Assembly (NCBI GenBank): GCA_026027325.1
Contig: JAMSLZ010000002.1
Location: forward strand, 3,100,001-3,164,000
Source of the DNA: Actinomucor elegans
Taxonomy: Eukaryota; Mucoromycota; Mucoromycetes; Mucorales; Mucoraceae
Reading direction: 5' to 3'
Length of the DNA: 64,000 nt
Shown here: positions 8,601 to 27,654 of the stretch, piece by piece
How the letters are laid out: each line of letters begins with the position of its first letter
Position numbering within the stretch: position 1 is the stretch's first letter
Notes under the pieces: model-generated
The model's input: only the letters and a program-made list of their open reading frames with translations
The model's database searches: none
Told to the model about the DNA's origin: nothing
Position numbers and translations under genes: made by a program

Positions 8601-8971
8601 AAGCAAATTACGCTTCCAGCTATATTCAGATAAAAACAACAGATTTACCAAGCTGAACCACCACTAAAGGAGTACGCTTCTCTCTGTTTCGACGATTTTC
8701 TAATAACAATGACATGAATAGCAACATGTAATGTTTTCAAAGATCGATATAGTTTATTACTTGATTATAAAGAAATACAAATGACCAAAGCTTGGAGTCA
8801 CAGGTTAACTCATATTGCTCTTTCTTGTATAGTTTTGTGTTTTTCTTGAACGCTTTCAAAACATGAACTTATAGGACTTTTTTGAATGCAAAACAGTGAT
8901 TTTCAAAACACTACTTTTGGTCAGAGATAAAATATTCAATAGAGATAACGTTAATATTTTTAATGTAGTTA

Positions 8972-9175
8972 CTAATTGATAATAATAATAATAAATTCAA
9001 AATAAGATTGCATATATGCGTACAGTATCACGTTTTTGTAATCATCAGGTATCTTTTTAAACGTCGATACTTTAGCTGCATCTCCCAGTTGTTTATTGCT
9101 GTTATTATTATTGCTAGCTTTCCATTGTGCTACGAGTAAGATCGTCAGACATAATCCTAAGAATAAAACTACCAT
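8972..9175 (-). CDS. Possible small membrane-anchored protein or exon
   Basis: A 67-codon frame beginning MVVLFLGLCLTILLVAQWKA (a clear N-terminal transmembrane or signal-anchor segment), then an Asn-rich linker and STFKKIPDDYKN, after which a GTGATA could act as a weak donor. It starts after a short pyrimidine-rich leader. No family recognised. It may be the first exon of the decayed minus-strand gene just downstream, or a chance ORF. Confidence 0.25.
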   Translation of the reverse strand: MVVLFLGLCLTILLVAQWKASNNNNSNKQLGDAAKVSTFKKIPDDYKNVILYAYMQSYFEFIIIIIN

Positions 9176-9194
9176 TAGAAAAAAGAAATCAACG

Positions 9195-9740
9195 TACTCG
9201 CAATTAAGCTAGTTGAAATTAAAGATGAGCTGACTGATTATATAACTCTTCTTGAATAAGAGAGAAATACTCTGTCGCAAAAAGCGCATGCATTTGGACA
9301 CTTTCTCAAGTTACTTGATTAAATGGAAAAGGTGCTCTTCGAAAGAGAACACTTGGTAAAAAGCAAATAATTTCACAGATCTGACTATTATCCAACAGTT
9401 GCTGGATAAACAAAGAGAACTATAACATTTAGATTATGCTTGAGCAGAATAATCGGTTTTAAATTCTGAATCTACATGACGCAAAAAAAAAACAGAACCA
9501 AGATTTCCAGATGTGATGAGAATGAGTTGTCTAATATTGCAATTGGGGTATCAAGTAATGAATGAACAACAACTGCTGCTATAAGTAGAGATGAGGGCGT
9601 ATTAAATAGAAGATTAGGCAAAAAAAGTCATAATGCTGAACTGGAGCATAATAGGAAGTATGCCTGATGAGCAAGCCGATAAAACTCAGCCGCATGAATG
9701 TATTACTGGATGGAACTTGTATGTTTGTCGAGTCAATACA
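9195..9740 (+). pseudogene. Eroded coiled-coil coding relic
   Basis: The plus strand encodes KLVEIKDELTDYITLLE-stop-ERNTLSQKAHAFGHFLKLLD-stop-MEKVLFEREHLVKSK-stop, and farther on LTIIQQLLDKQREL-stop, DENELSNIAIGVSSNE-stop and KSHNAELEHNRKYA-stop. The pieces are heptad-like and charged; the stops interrupting the first two pieces are TAA, compatible with CAA to TAA decay of Gln codons. No family can be named. It lies back to back with the minus-strand relic, so the two may once have shared a promoter near 9180. Confidence 0.35.
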
Positions 9741-10271
9741 AGTATATTTGATCCTGGTAGAGGATAATGTTGCAAACGTTCATAATTATATCAATAAGAG
9801 AGTATTATACAGATATAAGACCATATAGGTATCCTTATAAATAACTGTAGACGTATTAAAGCATTATTATCTAGAATCAGATTGCAAATGACTGTGTTTG
9901 GATTATTTATATCTCTCACTGAACAAACAGCAGTAGCTGGTAGATACTATTTTCTAATATCCAAGTACAAATCCAATACCATCCTCTCTTTATTATCATT
10001 TATCTCGATCAAACCTTTGCCAACCTTGGACCTTCTCTTTGACTATCCCAATTACAAACTAGTGCTCTCTATATAAATGATCTGCACATGTTTTTATTGA
10101 TTCTGGTTAAATGTCGTATCAGATGATTATATCCCCTACTCGTAGTAAACTGTTGTGTCTATTCGAGTCTGTATTTAGCTAAAGTATACTCGAAATATTG
10201 TAATTTGCCAATGATAAATTATGCTATGTGTAGTCTATACAACTGAATCTAATGATCAACAGAATTCTACT

Positions 10272-10338
10272 CCGATCACTGTTGAATGTTGCATCTGATT
10301 AATCTTCAGCATTTAGAATGAACTGCTATTGCATCTAC
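10272..10338 (-). repeat. Dispersed ~60-bp element, copy 2
   Basis: Minus-strand reading GATGCAATAGCAGTTCATTC ... AATCAGATGCAACATTCAAC ... GATCGG matches the family consensus in order and spacing. A shorter partial match lies at about 10106-10140. Confidence 0.65.
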
Positions 10339-12208
10339 TACTGTTCTCATTTAAATGAAATAGAGTAAATACATGAAATTTATTAATAATAGTCTCATTG
10401 AAACTTAATCAATAGATTTACAAAACTCTCGCTCAATCCCGACTTAATGTTACATGAAGGAAATGAATTGCTGCATCTGACAAAAGTACATACTTATTCT
10501 AGTGCCTTAATTTCGCTTACCCATTTATACTGTATAATAATCGGCTACTGGGGCTTCTTCTTTTCTTCTAATCAAAGTCTCTACGCTACAAAACGGAGAA
10601 CAAACTGCATAATAATCTCCAGAAAGCTTCTTTTTTTTTGTTAATGCAATGTCTACCTTAACATATTACACTATTCCTTTAGATGTATGCGCCGGATGAC
10701 TGGTGTCTGTATCTAGTTGCACTATTTTCGGTATCAAGCCAACAAAGATTTGCGCGACTGGCGGTGATTTCCTATTGACAGAAGCATTATATGCAGTGTT
10801 CTGCAAGTCTTAATGGTAATTAATTATCTCAATAATATACCAGCTGTTCTTTGTAGAAGAAGAACAAGACAATCTGATTAGAAATGTTTGGGGTCTTGAT
10901 ATCTACTATCAAAAAGTCCGCTTATACACTCACATGTTTCTGTGTAATTTAAGGGTGTTCTCTAACCTGTGATCTCATTTTTTTTTTGAAAGCGCAACCG
11001 TGGAACAAATGTAGAAGATCTTTAATGTGAAACTATCAATTTAAGTATTCTTATTCAATACAAGCCAGGATTCATATTTTACATATCCCGATACGATTTT
11101 ATATTACCCCATTCACAAACATAGAGTATGCATTCAATAGGTTTCTCTATAGTATTAAATACATCCGTTTGTTAACAATGCGCTACAGGCGCTATTTAAG
11201 ACGAAAACTAGCGCACGGTTGTATAACAGAATAAACAAAGGTGGGGTACATACTTGCGAAACGCATAATAAGTGACTTTCATGAGACAGCTTTACGCGTT
11301 ACTCAGGCTGATCTTCTATAAGCAGTTAAACTCTCTATTACAAATTAGGGTTCATACTCCATCTTCAGGCCGATTGAATTACTTTTTTTATACTTTTTGT
11401 CCTATGTATAATGGTGAATATGTAGAAAAAGGAAACAAACTGTAATGAATGCAAAAGCGTCTACAACAGATACCCCCCGCAAAAGCTTCATCTTTGTGCA
11501 AAAAGCAATATCTATCTAACAATATCATCTTTTTTGATCTTCAAAGTTTACAGAGATTTTTGCTGTTATCAAAAGGTAAGGAGCTCAAATTTATCTGTTC
11601 AGCATTACTATGACAGTAGATCGAGAAATGTTTTATAACTTAACTGTATCTAGAAATTTACATCTTCCAGTATGCATGCTTTGTGTAAGTCATGTAATAT
11701 AAGATAAAAGCGGTTCGATACCATGCTGCAAAATTAGTCGATTCATATGCTGGTTTTTGACAATGTTTTTGTATGTATTCAGTAATAGACAGGCAGATAG
11801 TGGTATAGTAGGTTGCATTTCATATGCTAGCCCATTAGCTAAATAGTCAGTATATGTAGCAATGTAACGCAAAAAGCTAGAAGGAATTAAAAACAGGCTG
11901 CAGTAGTTCCCACAAGAAGTCTTAATCAAATGATAGTTGAGCACTGATGGGAAAGAACGTGTTTTCTTCTAGAGCCTTTGACTTTTAGTAGATATCCAAG
12001 ACAATAAACTGGATGTTATTAACCATATATGCCTCATAAGTGCTATTACATCGTTACTAAATTTCTCAATGAGTTACAATGGACTTTGATATGATATGAT
12101 TATTTTGTGCCCCAAAAATCATAAAGACCGTGCGGGTATCTTTGTTCAACACCTTAATAGGTGGCAATCCTACACTCAGCTTCAAAGTCCTGTTTTTGTT
12201 AGCTTTGT

Positions 12209-12234
12209 CACACACACACACACACACACACACA
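12209..12234. repeat. (CA)n microsatellite
   Basis: Thirteen CA units about 100 bp before the start of the CRAL-TRIO gene. Confidence 0.9.
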
Positions 12235-12335
12235 TTATTATCTAAAAAAAGGGACTACTTTTTTTCTTTATAAACCGTAAAGGTGGAACACGTTGAAATC
12301 TAAAAAAAAAAAAACTATCTTCTTTTACTTTTAAT

Positions 12336-13796
12336 ATGTCTCCTGCTGCTTCAACCAACACTAATGCCACTACCGAGCCATTGCCCGGACATGTTGGCAA
12401 TTTAACAGTGAAGGAAACCGATATGCTCAAGCAAATTTGGGTTCGCCTTTTCGATCTTTTCAAACAAGCAGGTACCGAATATACACCTCCTGCCAAAGAA
12501 GAAGAAGCACCCGTCAAAAAAGGTGGATGGTTCTCAAAGAAAGAAGCACCTGCTGAAAAAAAGGATCTTTTTATTGGCACTACAACTGATCCTACTTGGT
12601 TGACCTTGCCTCTGGACAAAGCCTTGCCTTTGATCTCTGGTGTTGCTCTTCAAAGCACTTTTTGGAACATGGTTGCTACCGATAACCCAGATGCTGTCGT
12701 ACTTCGTTTCTTACGTGCTCGTAAGTGGGATTTAGATGCTGCTTATAACATGTTGGCCAACACTCTCCGTTGGCGTGTATGCAACCGCATTGATGATGTG
12801 GTTGCTCTTGGTGAAAACGGGCTCCGTGATGAGCTCAACAGACTTAAGCCTGGATTCGGTGATTGCTTCATTACTCAACTGAACTCTGGTAAGGCTTATT
12901 TGGGCGGTCCTGACAAGGCCGGTCGTGGTATTTGGTAAGTTTTGGACGGGCAGTTTAATAAACATACTTGAAACTCATACTGTATGTAGTTTCATCAATG
13001 TTAGATTCCACAACAAAGATGATCAACCCCTTGAAGCTATCAAACTCCTGACAATGTATGTTATGGAAACTTCTCGCGTTGTTGTCCATCAGCCAGTGGA
13101 AGCTGCTTGTATTGTATTCAATATGGAAGGCTTTACATTAAAGAACATGGTAAGTTTTGTTTGGGGTTGGAATTAACTCGTACGAAGTGTAACAATCAAT
13201 ATTAACTCTATTTCGTACAGGATTTCGAATTTGTCAAGTTCTTGGTTACCTGCTTTGAGGCTTACTACCCAGAAACACTTGGCTCTTGCTTAATCCATAA
13301 GGCTCCTTGGGTATTCTCCACTGTATGGAATTTGATTACACCTCTCTTGGATCCTGTTGTTGCTAGCAAGATTCACTTTACTAAGGATGTAAAGGAGTTA
13401 ACAAACTATGTTGATATGGGTGCTTTACCTGGTTTCATCTCAGGCGATACTACAAAGAAGACTTTGGATGAAGCTACTGATATTGAGCCTGTCCAGCCTG
13501 GTACTTTGGCTACACCTACCGCCCCTACCTACAAAGACTATCAGGATATGATCAAAGAATTCCAGATCGAAACCACTGAATGGGCTAAAAAGAAGACTAC
13601 TGAAGAAGGTGATAACGGTGCTCGCCATGAGCTTGCTAGACAATACCGTCTTGCTCGCATCAAGGCTGAAATGGATATCAGAGGCCCCACTGGCTACCAA
13701 GCCAAGGGTTTGGTCACTATCTCTCCTGAAGGTCGTGTTATGCTCAATTATGGTAGTGAAGGATGGGTTCCTTTGGATATCACTGAAATGGTCTAA
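12336..13796 (+). CDS. CRAL-TRIO (Sec14-like) lipid-transfer protein
   Basis: Three exons (12336-12934, 12990-13149, 13221-13796) give 444 aa. An N-terminal low-complexity region with a Lys/Glu/Pro-rich linker leads to a CRAL-TRIO N motif (VVLRFLRARKWDLDAAYNML, about residues 120-139). The lipid-binding CRAL-TRIO domain follows (INVRFHNKDD, then CIVFNMEGFTLKNMDFEFVK, then EAYYPETLGSCLIHKAPWVF, then HFTKDVKELTNYVD). Such proteins bind and exchange phosphatidylinositol or other lipids between membranes in the cytosol. The C-terminal ~100 residues are charged and helical and end in GWVPLDITEMV. The arrangement resembles the yeast Csr1/Sfh type more than Sec14 itself, but I cannot assign a subfamily. 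No GOLD domain is visible. Confidence 0.9.
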
Positions 13797-15728
13797 GTAC
13801 ATTTTATTTCTTTACATATACATATTATTTGATCTACAAGACACACAATATTCTACATAGATAGCTATAATATTTTTTCTTCTGGAAAAGAAAAAAAGGG
13901 GGTTCCTTTTTCTAGTTATCTTCACTCAATCACCCAATTCCTTATTAAAAACATCATACCCTCTCAAATGCCTTTTTTTTTTGGAAATTATAATCAATAA
14001 ACTATAGTTTATTATTCAATCCAGCAAATAGAGATGATAGTTGAAGCGAACATATTTAATAGAATAATATGTTCTAAAGACCTAAATATATCGAGTCTTT
14101 CGTACAAATTACTCTATCATCGTGGATATCAAGAGCCAAGTTTTGAACTTCTACGGCGAATGCCCAAGAAAATCTGAGATTTGTCAAACCTTTCTTGGCA
14201 TGTTACACGACGAAAAGTAGATCAATATAGACTTGGCGATGCCGCTGATAGAAAGAAGGTAGTAGACTGATAAAATAACTTGCACTCACAACACTTTGCG
14301 TTACTGTGATTGATGACCTATGTAGCTCTTATATACCATTTTTGTACTAGTTTATATCGGTGCTCATTGATGGGCTAAGTAGCTTCAACTTAACAAACAT
14401 TGATTTCATTGGTTGATGGATGGCTGAAACACTTGTTTACCTTTAGCACATTCGAGAAAAGTCTAATATTACATCTAGATTAATAGATAAACGCGATAAA
14501 ATTAGCTTCCAAGAAGCACATAGGTCAAAATACTCTCTTTCAAATGAAAAAAAAAAACGTGGTTGTAACATTAAAAGCTATACTCTATATAAATCGGACA
14601 GCATATTTTGGAGTTAAATACCCCATTTAATAAACAGTATGAGGCCAACCGGAAACTTACACCGCCATTTCAAAGAGGCCATCTTTATATAAATAATTCT
14701 AACTCTCCCTAACTTTAACTAAGAAATCTTAAATGTATCTCCTCAATCATCATCCGTTATAGCCATATTTTTTATTTTAGATATGCAATTGTCATTGGGA
14801 AGTTGACAAGGTCTATTATTTGACTCGAGCGATCTCATTCAATCTCTGTCTGATCTTGCATCAGAAGAGTAGTCCATGCTCAGAATGAACAGTTGTATCT
14901 TAAAATCCTGAGTTCTACTTCAGATCGCTATTCATTATATTACATTGTCTTTCATTAATTAATGAATACTTTTCTACTTATTAAACGCCATTTTTTTTTT
15001 TTTTTTTTTTTTTTGTTAGTGAATATGTTCTTTATGTTTGTATCAAAATTGAAGATAATAATTTCTTTTGGCCGAGAACGATGAATCTTTTACAACCAAA
15101 GCATAGCAGGACAAAGTAATTACTTCATTAGAGACAAAGTCAGGTGGCTTATGCTTGAACCAGTGCTGTCAGAAGCTACAGCTACCAGGTTCTTATCGCG
15201 TGGTACCTTCTTCTACCACTTTAATTAAGACAGATGAATTTATCAAGTATATCGAACTATACATTATCCATGACATAAGCCAACTGACTGAATATTAAAA
15301 TATATAAACTAAGTTTACCTAGCAGAGATATGAGGTCATTTTTATTCATTAGTCGTTGAAATAGAGCATATTGATAGAAAGAGCTTTCGATGCCTTAAGT
15401 ATCCATTACCAACATACCAAATCAATTATATTATATATATACATATACTATTCTAGATCCTCTTCCCGACAGAAAAAAAATATATGATTTGTTTCATTTT
15501 GAAACCAAAATTTGTTCAGTTATAAAAAAAAAAAATAAAAAAAAAAAAAATACTTGATTTGTGCTTATCGTCACCAGTCGGATTTTATGCAAAACCTGAC
15601 AAAATAGAATGATAGGCTACTTAAAGAGATATGAAATTAACGCTAGTGGTTAGCAATAAAAAAAGTTTAAAAGCGCAAGGGTTCACCTTTTTTCTCACTT
15701 GTTTATTACTTACGCTTGATATAGTAAA
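13797..15728. other. Intergenic region
   Basis: AT-rich, no supported gene. Contains an antisense dispersed-element copy (about 14828-14902), a T24 run (14991-15014) and two A-rich runs around 15525-15552 not far before the trehalase start. Confidence 0.5.
14828..14902 (-). repeat. Dispersed ~60-bp element, copy 3
   Basis: Minus strand reads AACTGTTCATTCTGAGCATG, then GACTACTCTTCTGATGCAAG and a diverged end with GAGATCG. Order and spacing match the consensus. Confidence 0.65.
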
Positions 15729-18315
15729 ATGTTTGGTAATAGACGAGAATCTGTCAGTTCTACAGCCCCAGCCTCTACATATTACACCACAGGACGTAAT
15801 GGGCCTCGTCACCGAACTAGAACATATTCTGTAAGTAAAAATAACCACTATAAATATTTCCAACAGCTCTAATGATAGTCCTTAGAGGAATTCTACGGGT
15901 ATTTTTGCTGGCCACTCGAATGATAACTTGTACGCTGGTGTACAAAGACGTGCATCCTATGGTAAGTCATAAGCATTCCTATCTTTACCAATTCGTACTG
16001 ACCATTATCTATATTCAGAGGACCGAGGAAAGAACCGTCGTTTTCTCATCGATGTTGAATCTACACTGACTCGAATTCTGGAACAAGAAGATACAGATGG
16101 TGACTTTCAAATCACTATCAATGACCTTGGGCCCAAGATCCTATCTCTCGGAACTGCGGATTCTGGTGGATTCAAGCGATTCCAAATCCGAGGTAATTAC
16201 ATGCTGTCCAACTTGCTGCAGGAACTCGCTTTGGCCAAAGACTACGGCAGAAAATATATTGTTCTAGACGAAGACCGATTATCAGAGAACCCCGTTAATC
16301 GTTTGTCCAGAATGATACGCCATCTTTTTTGGGATGGGCTGACTCGTTCTATCGATGGCGATGGCCTTGAATCCATTTGTGCTGATCCCAAAAACAGATC
16401 TAGCGATATTGCGCCTAGAATTTATATTCCATATGATGAGACTGACATCTACGAGTACTATAAACGTGTCTCTGAAGAAAAGAAACATCTTCATCTAGAC
16501 GTTCAATACCTTCCCAAGGATATCACTCCCGAGTATGTGAAGAGTATCAATGACAAACCTGGCATCTTGGCTTTGGCTATGAACAAAACAGTCGATGATC
16601 AAGGTAATGTGGACTATAGCGGTGTTCCGTTTGTTGTTCCAGGCGGTCGATTCAACGAGATGTATGGCTGGGACTCTTATTTTGAAACGCTGGGACTTTT
16701 GGCTGATGGCCGAATCGAATTAGCCAAAGGCATGGCTGAAAATTTTGCATATGAAATCAAGCACTACGGAAAGATTCTCAACGCCAATCGATCATATTAT
16801 CTATGTCGTTCCCAGCCTCCGTTCTTGACTGACATGGCCATCAGGGTTTACGAAAGATTGGATCCCGCCAAAGAAGAAGAAAACAAAGCTTGGCTTCGTG
16901 AGATTTTGAAATCTGCTATCAAAGAGTATCATACCATATGGATGGCTGAACCAAGACTGGATAAAAAGACAATGTTGTCGCGTTATCGACCTGAAGGTCT
17001 TGGTATACCGCCTGAAACCGAGGCTTCTCATTTTGATCATGTAATCTTGAAGTTTGCCAAGAAGCACAATGTCACTATTTCAGAATTCAACATCATGTAT
17101 AATAATGGTGAGGTGCAAGAACCTGAACTGGATGAGTACTTTTTACATGATCGTGCAGTCAGAGAATCCGGCCATGATACAACTTATCGCTTTGAAGGTG
17201 TGTGTGCCAACTTGGCTACAGTCGATTTGAACGCTCTTTTGTACAAGTATGAAACAGATATAGCAGATTGCATTAGGGATTTTTTGGATGATGATCTTGA
17301 AGATTTTGACGGTGTCAAGCAAGCAGCTGAAGTATGGTCGGATAGAGCTTCTGTGCGAAGAAAAAGGATAGACAAGTACTTGTGGAATGACAAGGAAGAT
17401 CTTTATTTTGATTATGATACAGTCAAGGAAAAAATGACTACCTACGAAAGTGCAACTGCTTATTGGATGATGTGGGCTGGCTGTGCCTCTGAAAACCAAG
17501 CTGAACGGTTAAAAAAGAGTCTTTACAAGTTTGAAGTCCGTGGTGGGTTGGTTTCTGGTACAGAGCAATCGCGAGGCCATATTTCACTTGATCGCCCTAA
17601 TCGTCAATGGGATTTCCCATTTGGATGGGCTCCTCATCAAATCATGGCATGGGGCGGCTTTGATAACTACGGAATGTCCGATATTGCAGGACGTTTAGCC
17701 TATCGTTTTCTTTACACGTAAGTCTTTAAAGAAGTTTGAATGATAAGTTATGGTGCTCAATCTTTTTTTTTTTTTAATAGCATCACCAAATCATTTGTCG
17801 ACTTTAATGGCGTGGTTCCTGAGAAGTTTGACGTTGTAAATCTTTCTCATCAAGTCCAAGTTGAATATGGTAATGTTGGAGTTGACTTCAAATTTGTTCC
17901 AAGGGAAGGTTTTGGATGGATGAATGCTTCTTTTGAAATCGGTCTTACATATCTTAGCGTGCAGTTGCTTCGAGCACTTGGCACTCTGACAGATCCTGAT
18001 TTCTTCTTCAAGAAGATGGTTGAAAACGAAACAGAAAGCTTATCTGAGGAAGAAAAGCGTGAAGCAATGTACCGTCGTCGTGTATCTACAATTGCAGCTC
18101 GTGAAATTCTTAGCCATGAGCATGATGCGGTTGTAACCAAGATTAATACAGATGATATCATGAGGCAATCAATGAGTGCTCCCAAAACGCCTGAAATCTT
18201 TGAACATTTCCTAGCTCCATATCCTGAAGAGGTGAAGGAAGACGATGCAACGCTCCTCCCTGTAGCCAACAATTATGGCGACTATCTTGACCCATCAAGT
18301 GCCGAACGCACCTAA
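15729..18315 (+). CDS. NTH1: Neutral (cytosolic) trehalase
   Basis: Hydrolyses alpha,alpha-trehalose to two glucose; GH37; mobilises the stress and spore sugar reserve in the cytosol. Four exons (15729-15830, 15886-15961, 16019-17717, 17781-18315) give 803 aa. The regulatory N-terminus carries RRAS at about residues 55-58, a classic PKA site, and an EF-like Ca2+-binding loop DTDGDFQITINDLGPK at about 84-99. The catalytic domain has signature 1 (PGGRFNEMYGWDSYF, about 267-281), signature 2 (QWDFPFGWAPHQ) and the base-bearing REGFGWMNASF. There is no signal peptide, which separates it from acid trehalase. For the first intron the nearer AG at 15866 leads to a stop, so the acceptor at 15885 is used. 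This start is chosen because it gives the expected Ser/Arg-rich leader. Confidence 0.95.
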
Positions 18316-19355
18316 TCATTGTTTTTTGTATTATAGTACTAGTAGTACAATTATTTTTATTTTTTTTTATAAACATCATGGTATACGTATACATCCTATT
18401 CGTTATCCTTTTTATTATTTTCAATAAAATAGTTTTGACATTTCAGTCTGAACACAAAGTACACTGAAAATGCATGACTTTTTTTTTGCGCTGACGCGTT
18501 TTAGATAACAATCAAGTGGATAGTAGAATAAAAAAGCAGCAGGTGGAAGCTGATTCTCAATATAAAGTACATTACCCCTCAAGATTTACCAATCATTAAA
18601 TCTCTAATAATTTACAAAATATAATATAATCATAGTATTCCTAAATGGTAGTTTTAGTAAAAAATCCCAAGGTATCCCTTAATGCAAAACTTTCAAAGTT
18701 TACTTTTTGTATGGAGCGTAGATAAATAAATCATTTTCATAGAAATCTAGATAGTATATATTTGAGAACACACATAAGCATTTTTTTTGTAAATCTTTCA
18801 TCCTAATATATAGACTCATGGATACATTTAAAAAATAAAAAAGGATGGTCTATTTTTCGTATAACTATTAATTCAAGACATACATAGCGTTCTTTAACAA
18901 GCCAATACATATTCGAATCCTGTACAAAGTCTGTCAGACAAATAAAGCTTTATTATATATATAAAAAAAAGGTCTTGATGAGCCTGTGGTGTTAATTAGG
19001 CACACCTATTCTGCCTAGGCCATTTTCATTACTTGAATGGTTATTTAAATAAAATCACAAGTGTTATCAAAGGTTTATAAACTCATGTGACAAGTCGAAC
19101 TTTTAAGAGCCTCGTTTGAATGGCCGCTTTAATAGCGATTTTATTCACATACCGAGTTTTGGAAGATTATTTTGTAGTTCTGCATTCTCTAATGATCAAC
19201 GCAAACTATTGATATACCCTTCAGTAGTAATAGATATAATGTATGCTATTTTTGTGTCTTCGTTAAAGCATAAAATTTGCTGACTTGCTATTTACTCCTT
19301 CCATGAAGTTATTAGTTACATCTTGGTAGTTGGATTCTGCATACCTTCATTATAT
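18316..19355. other. Intergenic region
   Basis: AT-rich 3' flank of the trehalase gene with T-rich stretches. No gene is supported. It leads into the repeated RNA-like array. Confidence 0.5.
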
Positions 19356-19356
19356 G

Positions 19357-19494
19357 CCTCAAAGTAATCCTTCCCTGTTTGTATATTGTCCGTATGCCAT
19401 ACAAGACTTTATACATTTCAAAAGTTATTGAGGATGATTCGATGCTCTAAAAGCACTTTGAAAAGTACTTTACAGCGATGGCAAGCTGAGTTCG
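19357..19494 (+). ncRNA. RNA-like repeat unit 1 (type A)
   Basis: First of four related ~137-nt units in direct orientation. Predicted pairings: P1 CCTCAA+TAA with TTA+TTGAGG; P2 TGTATA (19380-19385) with TATACA (19410-19415); P3 GTAT/ATAC around a GCC loop; P4 CGATGCTC with GAGTTCG; P5 AAAGCA with TACTTT. A TTTT run that could stop RNA polymerase III lies about 25-35 nt after the conserved end. G-U wobbles in the sister copies favour the plus strand as the transcribed one. Not matched to any RNA family I know. No protein reading is conserved between copies. Confidence 0.55.
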
Positions 19495-19603
19495 TCTCAA
19501 TATAATGAAGCTTTATGTGTGCTCTTTTAAATTCTGGATTAAAGTCATCTACCTGATTCAGACATTGAAATTCTCCAAGCAGGATGAGAAACTTCATTAC
19601 ACA

Positions 19604-19740
19604 CCTCATAGTAATCCTTCCCTGTTTGTATACTGCTTTTTGTGCCACGAAAAGACTATACATTTCAAAAGTTAATGAGTATGACTCGATGCTCTAAGGA
19701 TAATATTGGAAGTATCTTACGGTGATGGCAAACCGAGCTC
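19604..19740 (+). ncRNA. RNA-like repeat unit 2 (type B)
   Basis: Same length as unit 1 but a distinct sequence type. P1 is CTCAT/ATGAG, a swapped A-U to U-A pair relative to type A. P2 TGTATA/TATACA is kept. P3 is rebuilt as CTTTTTGT-GCC-ACGAAAAG (8 bp including one U-G). P5 is AGGATA/TATCTT, with two swapped pairs relative to type A. A TTCTTTT run follows the unit. Confidence 0.55.
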
Positions 19741-19894
19741 ATGTCAGTGTAAAACCGTTCTTTTAAAGTTATTTTATTTTTGGGTAAACTGCAATTTTGT
19801 TCGAATTCCTCAGCATTTTTAATTTTGTTGTTAAACTATTAACAGGTTTTGGTTTAAGAAGTACTCTCATTTTCCTGCGCTCTCTCACCATATG

Positions 19895-20031
19895 CCTCGT
19901 AGTAATCCTTCCCTGTTTGTATATTTTTTTTGTGCCACGAAAAGACTATACATTTCAAAAGTTAATGAGTATGACTCGATGCTCTAAGGATAATATTGGA
20001 AGTATCTTATGGTGATGGCAAACCGAGCTCG
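19895..20031 (+). ncRNA. RNA-like repeat unit 3 (type B)
   Basis: Near twin of unit 2. Differences fall so that pairing is retained: CTCAT becomes CTCGT in P1 (G-U against ATGAG), and the first C of P3 becomes T (U-G). The P4 closing helix CGATGCTC/GAGCTCG is complete. Confidence 0.55.
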
Positions 20032-20166
20032 TGTCGATATGGTTGAAGGGCCGTTATTTATAAAGGTAAATTTGTTCTTTTTATTTGATAGTTTTCCTTT
20101 TGCTTTTTTTATTTTATTTTATTTTATGTAGATTTTCCACTGAGCGAACAAAGTTTACTTCATACA

Positions 20167-20304
20167 CCTCAAAGTAATCCTTCCCTGTTTGTGTATTGTC
20201 CGTATGCCATACAAGACTTTACACATTTCAAAAGTTATTGAGGATGATTCGATGCTCTAAAAGCACTTTGAAAAGTACTTTACAGCGATGGCAAGCTGAG
20301 CTCG
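20167..20304 (+). ncRNA. RNA-like repeat unit 4 (type A)
   Basis: Near twin of unit 1. In P2 both strands changed together: TGTATA/TATACA became TGTGTA/TACACA (20200-20205 with 20220-20225), an A-U to G-C double substitution. P4 is perfect (CGATGCTC/GAGCTCG). The unit is followed after about 16 nt by a T41 run, far longer than any terminator needs. Confidence 0.6.
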
Positions 20305-20318
20305 GATCAGTATGAAGA

Positions 20319-20320
<2 letters not shown>

Positions 20321-20361
<41 letters not shown>
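20321..20361 (+). repeat. Poly-T run of 41
   Basis: Longest homopolymer in the window, directly after RNA-like unit 4. Other T runs of more than 20 occur at 14991-15014, 23407-23427, 27659-27687, 29781-29801, 50727-50751 and 50969-51000. Confidence 0.9.
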
Positions 20362-20362
<1 letters not shown>

Positions 20363-21413
20363 GTCAGAAAGTCTATTGTATGTTATGTAGTTTTGCTAAT
20401 ATCGCAAGAATAATGTCACTTACACTTTTATTAGCTCAAGCAAGTACTTCGATCAAATGTTCTTACTCTTTGTGTTTTCGTCAGTACGTCGACATGATTT
20501 TTTTTTGTGTCAAGTTAAAAACTTGGTCGAGGCGAAAATTTCATTCTGCTTTGTGATTGCGAACTACTAACCATAACTACAGTACTTTGCATTTTTAGCT
20601 GGGCAAAATTACCACAGGTTGAGTATATCACAACACAAATATTGCCTTTCACGGAAGATTGACACCTGTAATAATTAAATATAATAAACTACTCGATAAA
20701 ACTCTGTCCTTTATTATTAAATTATTTATGTTTAATATTAATTCTAGAAACAAGGGATGGGTTGTTCTAGTTCTTTCAATTGATTATATATCCTGAAGAA
20801 CCTAAAAAGATATCCAGCCATGGAAGCCTTCTCATGGGATCTTAGCAATAGTAGCAAATTTGATTGGCTGATCAGATTTACACTATTACAACGCCTTTGA
20901 AGGAACCTGTATCTTAACTGGCTATTGATAAATTTCTGCTGAGATCAGTTTAAGTCGAAATAGAACTTCTCAATACTCTGTAGAAAGACTTTAGATTATT
21001 ATTGTATACTATATTAATTTGCTTATCACACTTGACAAGTATCTTGTATTCAAAATGAACAGAGAAACATCTAATCTTTATGAACGAGTAACACAGAAAG
21101 CCAAAGACGTCTCTATAGAGAGGAATAGTGTCCATAGCTAAAAAGATGTTATTTGGAGTGTTTTTTGCTTCATGAGGCCTTCATATATTCACTCTTGTAG
21201 AGTAAATGGATTTTTTTTACGTAGATATATGGGTAGGAAGACCCAGAGACGTTGTTATTACGTCAATGTATCCCACCCGTTATTATAATGAAAGCAAACA
21301 AAAAAGTGGCGATCTTTCTCTTCCCACTTTAATAGAGTAGACAGCAAGAGTTTCATTTCTTATTGTTTATACTATTCTCATAACGCTACACATATCCATT
21401 TTATATACTTTCA
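20362..21413. other. Intergenic region
   Basis: No supported gene or further RNA-like unit. AT-rich sequence leading to the promoter of the next gene. Confidence 0.5.
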
Positions 21414-23195
21414 ATGCCAACTGAAAAGTTTCCAAAGTGTGCAGCAAGCCTTAAGCAGAAGTGTATCACGGAAAAGTGCAGAAGAGACGCCGCTATTGGT
21501 GATGATTTATTAATGTCAAACTTTGAGTCTTGGTCAATACATGGTTTTATTGAGGAATACTTCTTGACGCACACCATCCATAATCCTAATGGAAGACATT
21601 TATATAATACGATTATAGCAGCTCTGGAAACTCTTAGAGACCATGATGATGTTCCCTCAACTTCGAAAAACTATATATCTAAAGTACGGAATTTTATTGG
21701 CCAAAAAAACGTGAAGCTTGAATTTTTAAAACAATATAAAGATATGGAAAGAAAAACAAGGCTAGAAGAATCTCAAAAAACTTTGGATCAAGAGGTGGAT
21801 ATTACAAGTAATGAGCTTGTTGAAGAGAACTTAGCAAATAGGAGCCGAAAGCGAAGATCTGGAGTACGGATTAGTTTAAGTGCTGGTTTTTTCAATGCTA
21901 TTAACTATGTTTTTGTATAGGGTGATGATGATGAAAATGATGCGCAGCAGAGGGTAAATCCCAACGCAACTGATAAAGTTTAAAAAAAAAGTACTGATTA
22001 TTATCATTTTTTAGGAACCTTTGAAAATAACTGTAAATGATAAAAAATACACTTTATGTACACCCAATACCCTCGTGTCTCCAAATACACCTTTGATTAA
22101 TACCGACAATTACTCAAAATTAGAACAACTCGCCGATGTTTGCCTCAGCTTCAACCAAACTCACGCTTCTCAAGAAACATATGATGAATATACCCATATC
22201 AATACCATTTTCGATAATAATGGTTCGTTAAAGACCATCCCGGGTTCGATTAATTTGTTTAACTCTATGGTGCAGTCTGACGGAGATGATTATTGTGATT
22301 ATCTCGCATTTATTAAATACGAGTCCAATAAGTTCAATCGTTTCATGAAGTTTGCCATGCTTGACTTTGCCATCAACTGTGAGCGTATCACCCCAATCCC
22401 TGTAAACGATGAAAGAACCATTTTTAGTGAAGTTATTATACCTTTGTTTAAGTATTTTGGGAATATAACGAAACTAATATCTTTTCGCTGGCAAGTTTTC
22501 TTTAATTAATCGAAGATCTTAACTTAATATTTACATTTTATATCATCTTTGTTCTATAAGGGGAGAAAAAAAAGACAGGGATGCATCGACAGTGTTATTT
22601 TATGTCAATGAGGGTAAAGTAGATACAAAGTTATTGGATGGCATTGGCGAGGCATGCCATGGGAATAGTTGCCTTGTTGTCGAGTCCTCTGGGAAAGTAT
22701 TTTATTAGTCCATATTATATAATGGGTAACTAAATACTTCGTGTTTAGTTTCAGTTCGATACAGGATATCACACACACACAAGAAGATACTATCAAGAAT
22801 ATAACCAGTGCCACCAACATACTATTAAATATAATGTGCAAGTATAAAAAGGCTTCAAAAACCAATTTAATGAAATTGAAGGCATTCTCCATCCACGAAA
22901 TACAAAAGAAAATAACACTAGTACAGTATTCAAAGAAGGATGACTTCTCATGGAAAGTTATTGAATGTGGTACCGCCGATATTCCACTCACTTTCAAAGA
23001 AAGAAAAAAGATGATCAAAGTATTTGAAATGTTTGCCTTTTTATACGTATGTTTTTATAATAGTTATTGTTATTTATTAATTTCCTTTCTTATTTTACTA
23101 TATTTTTGCAAAAGAATATACTTAATGAACAGAAAGACTTAGTTGAAGTAATTGAGGAGGAAAGCCTGGGACTCAATATTACTGATAACACATAG
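21414..23195 (+). CDS. Mucorales-type hypothetical protein, apparently frameshifted
   Basis: Six exons: 21414-21863, 21921-21953, 22015-22490, 22561-22696, about 22755-23046, 23115-23195. Landmarks: HGFIEEYFLTHTIHNPNG early, a basic KRRS patch, ERTIFSEVIIPLFKYFG, LLDGIGEACHGNSCLVVESS, THTQEDTIKNITSATNILLN, and FKERKKMIKVFEMFAFLY near the end. I recall this layout (an ESSG block, then HTxEDTIK, then a WxxxFE-type end) from an expanded family of unknown function in Mucor and Rhizopus. The third intron needs a GC-AG donor (GCAAGT at 22491) to join W with GEKKDR. At the fourth junction exon 4 ends in phase 0 while the downstream frame requires two more bases, most simply a missing CA unit in the (CA)n run at 22770-22781. 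So the allele may be broken, or the assembly wrong. No membrane segment or signal peptide. Confidence 0.65.
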
Positions 23196-25604
23196 TAATG
23201 ACATTATTGTTTATTCATGTACTCATTTATTTACAGCTTTTAATGCTCCGATATATAGTTATATATCATATAGTATTTACCATAGCAAAATACATCCTCT
23301 ATAAATATAAAATGAACTTAAAGAAATTCATATGAAATTGAAATGGGCATCGCTGACATAAAGAACATTTTATGTTTTCTTTAATTTATAAAGTGATAAA
23401 AAAAACTTTTTTTTTTTTTTTTTTTTTAACTACTTCTTTAACTTAAGTGCTTATTAAGTTAATAGTAATAATAGTATATATGTTACATATATCACTAAAA
23501 AATAATGCACAAAAATGTCATCTTCACGTTCCATAAAAAATGGAAATTGATAAATTTTGATTTGAAGGCTTGCCTTAGGATTTTCTCTGAAACGGATCAT
23601 TTTTATTATATCTATATTTCTCGGTCGATTTAAACTTAATTTCGCATCCGATAACCGGTACATGTTCACAATGAATTTCTTTATCTATTAGAATCATTAC
23701 TTGACTGATCTATTATGTTTGCATTGGTTTTTATGATTGGTTATAAAAGACACACATTCCTGCGATATATAGTTTACACATAATTACTTGCAGAGTATAC
23801 TATATTAATTGAACCGTAGTTTTAGCAGGCTCAGTAACTTCCGAACATACAATGATCATTAGATGCTACATTAAATCAAATCCAGTAGAAATGTTTATAG
23901 CATTAGGAAGCACAAGCCCCTAACTAAGATTGCCGTTGTACACCCAATATCAAATGATTAACTGGCCATAGTTGTACTTTTATCCATCATTTTCAGTTAT
24001 ATTGCGCTTTTTGAGGTAGATGTTATCCTGCTAAACTGATTTTTTAAGCAGTAGATTCACTTGAAGCGTATATTGAATGAGAAATACCATTCACCAATAC
24101 AATTAACATCTGATTATACCTATTTTTTTCGGTTCATCTCGGTCTAAGAAAGCATGCTTTGACTAGTACACATTTGGAATTAACTGATGTATCTACTAGA
24201 GCTATTATTTGATGGTGGTGCTATGAATTTATTAAGGTTGATAATGGTCTTAATGAGTTACATATAAGCATATCTGTTAGCAATAACTACAATGTAATGC
24301 GATCCCTTTTAATATAGTAACGCCTACTCTAATTGGCTGTTTTTGGTATTTTACCAATATTGCTCTTGATTCCCAGCTATATATACGATACATCTTTCGC
24401 TTCAACCATCCGTACAACTTATTCATCAGACAAACACCGCGCCATTAAACAAACTGTGATAGAAATACAATACAGCGTACCTAAGTAGAAAAATTCTTGT
24501 TAGATTTTAGATTTCAAATGAGAGTTGAAAACAGGCCTTATCAATCATTTTAAACATATAAAAAGTTTGATTCAAAGAAACCTAGTTGCTCAATGTATTA
24601 TGATATATACATCAATGTATTTATAAACTATACCTTCACATGTTGCGTATGCATTTCAAGTAGACAGTATCGAGCTTCGAAAGGATGCCCCTTTGGTATG
24701 CCCTTTTAAATTTTCTCTGGAGTTGTTGCATTTGTTTGCTATTGTATTTCTCAACCAATCTCGAGCAAATAACACAATATCAGTTCTTCATATCCAGAAT
24801 GAAACACATAGCCTATCGGTTCTTTTTTTCATGAAGGCACAACCAGCATATTATACTGTTCAGAATAATGCATTATGTCTTTTATCCCATTATTTAGTCC
24901 GAATGCTTCAGCCTTAATGATCCCCTTATTCACATTTATTAATATATTCCATTATCTTCAATATATACACGTTGAGTATATTGAACTGTTTAGATACATT
25001 GAGAATTCATGAAAATATTCTCATATAAACTTGTTTGTACTCAACGATACAGTTCACATGATATGATTCATGTTCCAGAGAAGCAACCCATACACTCTTA
25101 ATTTTGCTCAAATTTAGATGCTATATGTTTGTCCTCAACCAATTAATACGACACAGAAGTTTATGTTGAAAGATTGGGAACAAGTATTCAGCATGAAAGT
25201 GCATCATGATTGTATTATTCAGCATTGCGGCCTTTAAATGCGTCGTTCACCAACTTTGGGTCTATTTGCGTACCAAGTAACAAGACTATTGCTTGATGAT
25301 TCTGATGACCTGGGCAACTGTAAGCCGCGAGATAGTATATATAGTATACAATTTTGCAATACACCACGATAAATGACGAATTTTGGTGTCTGAGCTTTAT
25401 GAAATAGGGTTTATCCTATGGCCATTAGTTAGAAACTTCCATCATTTTATTATCATTGACGAAATTATTCAGCGTATTATTCAGCAAGCAACGGTTCGGA
25501 GTATCTTTCCCCGGATTTATCCTATAAAAGACGTCGCGTCGCGTCTCTTTTTTCTTTTCCATATCAACAACGAAAAAACATTTTTCTTTGAACTAAAATA
25601 TACA
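23196..25604. other. Intergenic region
   Basis: No supported gene. Minus-strand frames near 23454-23696 look weakly protein-like (for example MYRLSDAKLSLNRPRN) but are short and switch frame. Contains a T21 run and a diverged dispersed-element copy at about 24131-24198. Confidence 0.45.
24131..24198 (-). repeat. Dispersed ~60-bp element, diverged copy 4
   Basis: Minus strand reads AGATACATCAGTTAATTCCA ... GTACTAGTCAAAGCATGC ... AGACCGAGATGAACCG; order and spacing are kept but many bases differ. Confidence 0.45.
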
Positions 25605-26450
25605 ATGGCTTCCTCAGGTAGTATTGCAGACAATGGAAGGTTTGGATGAAGTATACTTACACATATTTCAGATAAAATCACTTTTTACAACGCTGTCATC
25701 TGCCCCTACGCTCAACGTGCAGCTATCGCTTTAAGAGAAGTCGGCGCTAATTTCGAAACTGTCAATATTGATCTGCAAAACAAGCCTGATTGGTATAAAG
25801 ACATTAACCCCGAGACAAAGGTCCCTGCTTTGACTGTTGAAGGTCAAAACCTTGCTGAATCTTTGGTCATTATCGAGTATATCAACGACCGTTTCCCCGA
25901 GAAAAAGTAACGTCACACCAAATTAGTTATATATTGTCTTATACTCAATCCATAATAGTTTATTGCCCAAGGAACCTATCAAGCGCGCCAACATTCGATT
26001 CGCCATTGAGTATTTTGCATCCAAGGTCAATGCTGACTTTTTTAAATTCATATTCAATACTTCTGCTGAGAATGCTCGTGCCGATTTCGAAAAGAACCTC
26101 AATGCTGATTTGACTCGCGTATGTAACTAAGTGAACAATACCTTTAGAGTGTTATTCATGCTTTTATTTTCTAGTTTAACCAACTTTTACTTCAACAATC
26201 TGCTACCGGTCCCTACTTCCTCGGAAACGAATTTTCTTTAGCTGATGTTGCAATTGCTCCTTTCTTTTTGCGTATTAATGGTTTCCTCAAGATAGCTTTA
26301 AAGGGATTTGAATTTGAAGCTGTCAAGTCTAACCCTAGACTTGCTGAATTTATTGAGGGTATTTCAAACAGACCTAGTGTCAAGGAAACCTATATTGGCG
26401 ATAAAGAGTACTTTGAAGCCTTGGTCAAAAGATTTAACTTGAAATTTTAA
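25605..26450 (+). CDS. Glutathione S-transferase, omega/Cys-type
   Basis: Four exons (25605-25617, 25672-25906, 25959-26118, 26175-26450) give 227 aa. The first exon is only 13 nt (MASS + 1 nt). The thioredoxin-like N-domain has ITFYNAVICPYAQRAAIAL with a CPYAQR active site, so the catalytic residue is Cys as in omega or lambda GSTs (dehydroascorbate reductase and thioltransfer activity), not Tyr or Ser. Then ETKVPALTVEGQNLAESLVI gives the cis-Pro VPAL and the ES glutathione contact. The all-helical C-domain contains GPYFLGNEFSLADVAIAPFF, the usual GST-C N-capping motif. Cytosolic; no targeting signal. Start follows a strong ACAATGG context. Confidence 0.93.
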
Positions 26451-26629
26451 GATTGATACCCCTAACACCTTGTTAACAGCGCATTTTCAATTGAACATTT
26501 GATATATCTTGTTTAATAAAAAAAAAAATTGTTTTTGTTTCAATATTATCCTGGAGTTTTGATTTACTAAGTAATATTATCAACCACACAGTTCCATACT
26601 GCAATATCACTCAATTACAAGTCCTTCAA

Positions 26630-27359
26630 ATGGGCAAAAAGGTATGTAAAACAATAGGCTAACCGAACTTGTTTATTGACAATACCAGTAAAGCTTGATA
26701 ATTAACATATAATTCAACAATTGAACTAGATGCAGCAACTTGTTCTGAATATTTGCTACTAATCCGATGTGACATTTGACCAACGTCTGTATAGGCATCT
26801 AAGGATGATTAGCTTATCATGCTAATTTCAAATTATGAGGTATCATAGAGAAATAAATTATCTTGCAAATGGTAACAGCACTTTGTTATGGGTGGCGCGC
26901 AACGTGTATAACTTACTGGCCAATGAAATCGGTATGTTTGAATATCAACGGCTTCCTAGTTCATCAGCTTAATTTGTTAGTGTTTGTCCCCTACTAGATG
27001 GTTTTTACCTACAGACGCTCTATTTCATATTGATCCATCCGTTGTCGCCTATTATGGAGGCAATTAGGATTTGCTTGCGTCTTCTCCAAACACTATTCTT
27101 AAACAAGAATACTCGGCATTTCGTCCTATTACTTGCGACGAGTTACAGATAGTTGCTGCTTCGTTCGTTATACAAATTCAACCGTATGTGTTACGTAGCA
27201 GGAATAAAGATAGGCTGATCATCTTATAAGAGACCGAGAAAGTTCAGAATAAAGTTACGACGTGCCGATCTTTTTATTGTACCTGCTGCTGTTGACGCTG
27301 CAGATCGTGAGAGTCGTCAAAAGAATGCTTATACACAAATTCTGGAGAGCTTGTTTTAG
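26630..27359 (+). pseudogene. Degenerate gene of unknown family
   Basis: Good coding pieces in splice-like order: ATGGGCAAAAAG then GTATGT; NGNSTLLWVARNVYNLLANE ending at ATC G then GTATGT; DALFHIDPSVVAYYGGN then an in-frame TAG, then DLLASSPNTILKQEYSAFRP and TCDELQIVAASFVIQIQ; finally ADLFIVPAAVDAADRESRQK ending ...ILESLF and TAG. A dispersed element (26728-26790) sits between the first two pieces. The TAG after YYGGN and unclear junctions suggest decay, although an unusual intron cannot be excluded. Family not recognised. Confidence 0.4.
26728..26790 (+). repeat. Dispersed ~60-bp element, copy 5
   Basis: Reads AGATGCAGCAACTTGTTCTG ... CTACTAATCCGATGTGACAT then TTGACCAACGTC, a close match to the consensus. 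It lies within the degenerate gene. Confidence 0.75.
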
Positions 27360-27654
27360 TAAAGATCATAACTTTAATTATGCTTTCTACTGTACATATG
27401 ATAAATTGGACCATGAACGCAGTCTATTCTAATAAACAAGGAAACCGAGATCGAGGAATTTAGTTTAAAGGAAACTAGCACGGAGAATTAAGACAAGTAG
27501 GCAAGTGAGTAAATAGATAACTAAGTAGCTAGATGATTTTGTAGGCTGTACAGAAAATAAGAAACTTGGACAGAATTTCTTATACGATCTTTAGCTTGTC
27601 ATGGGTAATTAAAAAAAAAACCTCGAGCGAAGACTTTTGATAGTTGTTACAGCG

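Follow-up and report, generated by a model that had tools for sequence, protein, structure and literature searches.

Four tandem units of a predicted, apparently undescribed structured RNA in an intergenic region of Actinomucor elegans

We analysed a window of 64,000 nt from A. elegans, part of a genome of 36.5 Mb in 27 contigs that set the scope of the genome searches. A repeat array occupies one intergenic gap on the plus strand, between the stop codon of a trehalase gene (18315) and an ORF at 21414. The trehalase gene (Pfam Trehalase) is the upstream neighbor, with its stop codon 1.0 kb before the units. Among the 120 protein matches listed for it, the best named one is from Mucor fragilis (88%), followed by Benjaminiella, Choanephora and other Mucorales; two metagenome proteins on the same list reach 92–93%. 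These matches place the source in or near Mucor. On the other side, 1.1 kb from the units, begins the next ORF of at least 150 aa. This ORF (21414–21920; 168 aa), 3′ of the array, matched itself alone in a protein search and has no Pfam domain. A run of 41 T (20321–20361) starts 3 nt past the last unit. A 21-nt inverted repeat (90% complementary) relates the region after the trehalase gene (18938–18958) to the 3′ closing arm of the first unit (19500–19520), probably by chance.

Four units lie head to tail on the plus strand in the order A-B-B-A, at the places where an earlier, sequence-only reading had put them (Table 1). That reading described units of ~137 nt with spacers of 110–155 nt. The number of units stands, but their lengths are 156–166 nt and the spacers between closing arms are 86, 134 and 114 nt; the units are longer than first described because each is closed by an additional helix, here called P0. 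Units 1 and 4 (type A) are 96% alike, as are units 2 and 3 (type B), while A and B share 77–78%. The spacers had been called unrelated, and indeed 9 of 10 spacer and flank comparisons were no better than shuffles, the sole exception being spacer 3–4 against the downstream flank (p 0.003). With the units 77–96% alike and the spacers and flanks mostly at shuffle level, it is the units that have been kept and not their surroundings.

Table 1. Positions of the units and of selected features within them (window coordinates)
Feature	Position	Strand	Detail
Unit 1 (type A)	19345..19510	+	166 nt, from P0 arm to P0 arm
Unit 2 (type B)	19597..19752	+	156 nt
Unit 3 (type B)	19887..20043	+	157 nt; outward P0 extension past bulges possible
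Unit 4 (type A)	20158..20317	+	160 nt
P0 5′ arm, unit 1	19345..19355	+	partner 19500–19510, 11/11 Watson-Crick
P0 5′ arm, unit 2	19597..19602	+	partner 19747–19752, 6/6
P0 5′ arm, unit 3	19887..19893	+	partner 20037–20043, 7/7 (core)
P0 5′ arm, unit 4	20158..20165	+	partner 20310–20317, 8/8
Arm 1, unit 1	19357..19433	+	P1 (CCTCAA/TTGAGG), invariant internal loop, P2, P3
Loop L3, unit 1	19395..19399	+	TGCCA, identical in 4/4 units
Hairpin P6, unit 1	19473..19488	+	loop L6 GATGGCAA, identical in 4/4 units; its TGGCA can pair with L3
T5 run within unit 2	19637..19641	+	
T8 run within unit 3	19924..19931	+	

Additional copies were sought with the 19-nt core (≤2 mismatches), a whole-unit DNA search and two split patterns, the counts being lower bounds. 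These DNA and pattern searches found no fifth copy in the 36.5-Mb genome; the matches were the four units and a stretch at the end of contig C14. There, C14:258700–267509 copies window positions 15963–24894 (about 8.8–8.9 kb), from which it differs by 2 substitutions, a single added base and the loss of 123 bases spread over 77 gaps. We rejected it as a second genomic locus, since it has only those 2 substitutions but is rich in deletions; it is a redundant, uncorrected contig end, mistakable for a duplication. A covariance model, run on the window only, recovered all four units plus a weak hit (E 0.16) within unit 2 on the minus strand. The 19-mer core was absent from the viral_contigs collection and matched once in genome_contigs, in a Neolewinella contig, which is about chance for a 19-mer in 257 Gb. 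Divergent relatives may lie below these search sensitivities. The sequence-only reading had also raised an RNA-derived repeat or transposon, and this idea found no support, nor did a SINE, for which many dispersed copies would be expected: these searches recovered only this array and its duplicate at the C14 end.

RNAalifold predicts for the four aligned units a consensus fold of 46 pairs (covariation term −7), with a three-way junction and a second three-way junction inside one of its arms. P0 would close the first junction. Arm 1 would comprise P1, a large invariant internal loop (its two strands read approximately AATCCTTCCCTGTTTG and CATTTCAAAAGTT), P2 and P3; arm 2 would be P4 opening into P5 and P6. 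The compensatory changes listed in the sequence-only reading are present in the pair counts: A-U to G-C in P2 of unit 4, A-U to U-A in P1 with a G-U in unit 3, a P3 rebuilt around GCC, and swapped pairs in P5. P6 is new here. Different stem sequences flank its invariant 8-nt loop, namely CAGC-GATGGCAA-GCTG in type A, CGGT-GATGGCAA-ACCG in unit 2, and TGGT, giving a G-U, in unit 3, which makes it, beside P0, a second clear example of a helix kept through sequence change.

Two-sided changes occur in at least one unit at 15 of the 46 pairs, where shuffles lead one to expect 9.8 (1/500 as high), and the covariation score of 0.449 was equalled in none of 500 shuffles. Standard pairs fill 98.9% of the 183 pair cells, falling to 30–42% when the 3′ partners are slid by 1–3 columns. 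The alignment energy was −29.5, compared with −12.0 ± 3.0 for 400 column shuffles (lowest −23.6), a z of −5.9. The count of further pair types showed no excess over shuffles (432/500 as high). Two-sided changes are in excess both within and between the types. Units 1 and 4 differ at 12 places (columns 7–165), yielding 4 two-sided pair changes against 0.16 expected (a number reached in 0/20000 draws); between units 2 and 3, with 15 differences, there are likewise 4, against 0.33 expected (1/20000); and the 39 differences between units 1 and 2 yield 10, against 1.6 expected (0/20000). These figures flatter the structure, which was derived from the same alignment, and the sample is four paralogues of one genome. 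Pair-breaking changes were rarer than chance between units 1 and 4 (0.0096) and units 1 and 2 (0/20000), and not between units 2 and 3 (0.37).

The closing helix P0, absent from the sequence-only reading, differs in sequence in all four units and pairs in each. Of the 24 ways in which the arms can be assigned to one another, the cognate one pairs best, and 0/5000 shuffles and 0/5000 draws from window positions 22000–27500 do as well. Taken singly, some non-cognate pairs do exceed the cognate ones: the unit 1 5′ arm with the unit 3 3′ arm (−11.6 vs −11.5) and the unit 2 5′ arm with the unit 1 3′ arm (−8.0 vs −6.8). The unit 2 5′ arm also ties with the 3′ arms of units 3 and 4 (−6.8).

Pairing on the plus strand includes 12 G-U cells, 1 A-C and 1 other mismatch, although 4 of the 12 G-U cells belong to one invariant pair. 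Because each G-U would read as A-C on the minus strand, plus is the likelier RNA strand, as had been proposed, and a cruciform in the DNA is improbable. Folding energy by itself does not separate the strands, as the minus-strand alignment folds comparably (−30.8, z −5.5). Folded singly, unit 4 is far below its shuffles (z −4.2), and unit 2 is no better than its own (z −0.72; 42/200 as low). Relative to the minimum-energy structure, the consensus fold costs 3.3 kcal/mol in unit 2, 4.1 in unit 3, and 0.5 in units 1 and 4. Folding of type B may depend on a protein or on a tertiary contact, or type B may be weaker. Altogether, sequence that differs while the folded shape is kept points to a functional RNA; that the plus strand carries a real, selected RNA structure is, on this comparison of paralogues, very probable.

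As RNA, the invariant loops are UGCCA (L3) and GAUGGCAA (L6), with 5 bp of complementarity. Complementarity of this kind arises in 0.5% of random draws of loops of these sizes, and 17 of 3162 naive hairpin pairs in the window have it. The match is suggestive of L3–L6 pairing, on which covariation is silent since both loops are invariant.

The unit had been found to fit no known RNA family, and a search with Rfam 15, the check proposed at that time, agrees: no covariance model reached its gathering score anywhere in the window. Four Rfam matches fall within 18900–20700, all far below gathering (E 2.7–8.2), and none covers a unit. Spliceosomal snRNAs carry an Sm site (A T4–6 G); it was found in none of the four units, nor was there a match to an snRNA model. 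ARAGORN, with the bacterial code, predicted no tRNA or tmRNA gene in the window. We also considered telomerase RNA, as TTAGGG repeats are present at 5 of the 20 contig-end stretches examined, and rejected it, a CCCTAA-type 6-mer occurring in 0/4 units.

Our preferred reading, to which as a whole we give a probability of roughly 45%, is that the locus makes a small, structured, undescribed non-coding RNA from four paralogous tandem plus-strand units. L3 and L6 would kiss and so dock the two arms, and the invariant internal loop would be the binding place for a protein or another RNA. The RNA would then act as a ribonucleoprotein scaffold, which we take to be its most likely function. A longer precursor, probably made by Pol II, would release the units, with trimming up to the P0 helices, in the manner of clustered snoRNAs. 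Polycistronic snoRNA clusters likewise place several small RNAs head to tail with short unrelated spacers; they differ in that our units have neither an Rfam snoRNA match at gathering nor box C, and in that P0 encloses each unit.

The units might instead be four independent Pol III genes, with T runs as terminators and promoters that are internal or of unknown type. We consider this somewhat unlikely. The T runs reported after units 1, 2 and 4 are there, and unit 3 has one too, at 32 nt: T4 or longer follows within 40 nt of 4/4 units and T5 of 3/4, where 40-nt stretches drawn at random from intergenic DNA nearby have T4 in 36% and T5 in 17% of cases. These frequencies tilt somewhat to Pol III, at any rate for type A, and the T41 run 3 nt beyond unit 4 fits as well. 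A terminal helix near the 3′ end is a feature of several Pol III RNAs; Y, vault, SRP and RNase P RNAs resemble the units in being closed by their ends, and unit 4 in its following T run. They are set apart by the units' lack of an Rfam match and of a U6-type promoter, and by T5 (unit 2) and T8 (unit 3) lying inside the folded type B units. The three U6 genes of the genome share an upstream CCACAASTTGG and a TATA box; the window has no exact match to this element, nor, with ≤2 mismatches, does the plus strand from 8785 to 20612. TATA[AT]A has a single match between 19077 and 20700, at 20059, 99 nt ahead of unit 4. The window has 23 B-box-like matches where chance would give 25, and with ≤2 mismatches allowed none falls inside a unit. 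Of the earlier proposal of an undescribed Pol III family, the structured RNA of no known family thus survives, whereas Pol III transcription, given the missing U6-type element and the internal T5 and T8, is doubtful. The U6 element seen here contrasts with the genome paper of another of the Mucorales, Lichtheimia, which reports that no Pol III promoter motif was found there (PMC4133162).

It is less probable still that the array acts in cis, within a UTR or intron of a longer transcript, where binding of a ligand or protein would control a neighboring gene. The tight tandem spacing (86–134 nt between P0 arms) would suit this, as would the combination of a three-way junction with possible loop-loop docking, which resembles the plan of several riboswitch aptamers; purine-class aptamers in particular have a closing helix and two arms that may dock through their loops, as in our units. 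But the trehalase stop is 1.0 kb upstream, the ORF 1.1 kb downstream matches only itself, and there is no known host transcript. Unlike purine-class aptamers, the units lack an Rfam match and form a eukaryotic intergenic array with no known controlled gene.

Unlikely, too, is a lineage-specific RNA with a compact fold docked through L3 and L6, in which types A and B would pair in an RNA–RNA or ribonucleoprotein complex, or which would sense a ligand or cleave itself. The VS ribozyme is of similar size and has two three-way junctions and a loop-loop contact; the order of its simple and branched arms differs from that in the units. Were this docked reading true, the units would be eukaryotic structured RNAs of a new class, unrelated to known families.

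It is improbable that the units are atypical snoRNA-like guides, or some other RNA whose invariant internal loop base-pairs with rRNA or with a spliceosomal RNA. Their long invariant single-stranded segments and tandem clustering fit such a role, but no Rfam snoRNA model matched at gathering. Two motifs characterize box C/D snoRNAs, RTGATGA (box C) and CTGA (box D); the first occurs in 0/4 units, and the second in 2/4, type A only. The marks of H/ACA snoRNAs are an ANANNA hinge, present in 4/4 units, and a 3′-end ACA, present near the P0 end in 0/4, where the P0 end may not be the end of the RNA. Both internal-loop strands pair with U2 and U6 no better than shuffles do. Complementarity of four segments to U2 and U6 gave one of eight tests below 0.05 (lowest values: the 7-nt J4 with U6, p 0.016, and L6 with U2, p 0.054), which we took as chance.

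Decayed coding repeats or a transposon relic with coincidental pairing can be dismissed as very improbable: type A has a frame open for 45 codons whose HTH_23 match stays below threshold (E 0.04), but a TGA interrupts that frame in each type B unit, differences between units 1 and 2 are spread evenly over codon phases (7/6/6 over 81 nt), eight of nine genome matches of the type A peptide are at the units or the C14 copy and the ninth is at E 0.11, and covariation is far above shuffles. The protein-coding repeat was rejected on the first three of these points.

None of the publications among the matches listed, judged by title and start of abstract, describes such an RNA, and the four-unit family is apparently an undescribed structured RNA. 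The 15 fungal structured RNA motifs of Li and Breaker (2017; PMC5640933) are also fungal candidates found from sequence; the main text of that paper contains neither 'Mucor' nor 'Rhizopus'. The Lichtheimia genome paper reports RNAs of Rfam families predicted by BLAST and Infernal, some by hand, and mentions further unspecified ncRNA candidates in its supplement (PMC4133162); these may include a previous prediction of the RNA in relatives, made without a label.

In our judgement, early-diverging fungi have seen little work on structured RNAs. The amount of compensatory change among just four paralogues makes this family a strong functional-RNA candidate of a kind invisible to homology searches, and the unit is small and compact enough for probing, deletion, and purification with its partners.
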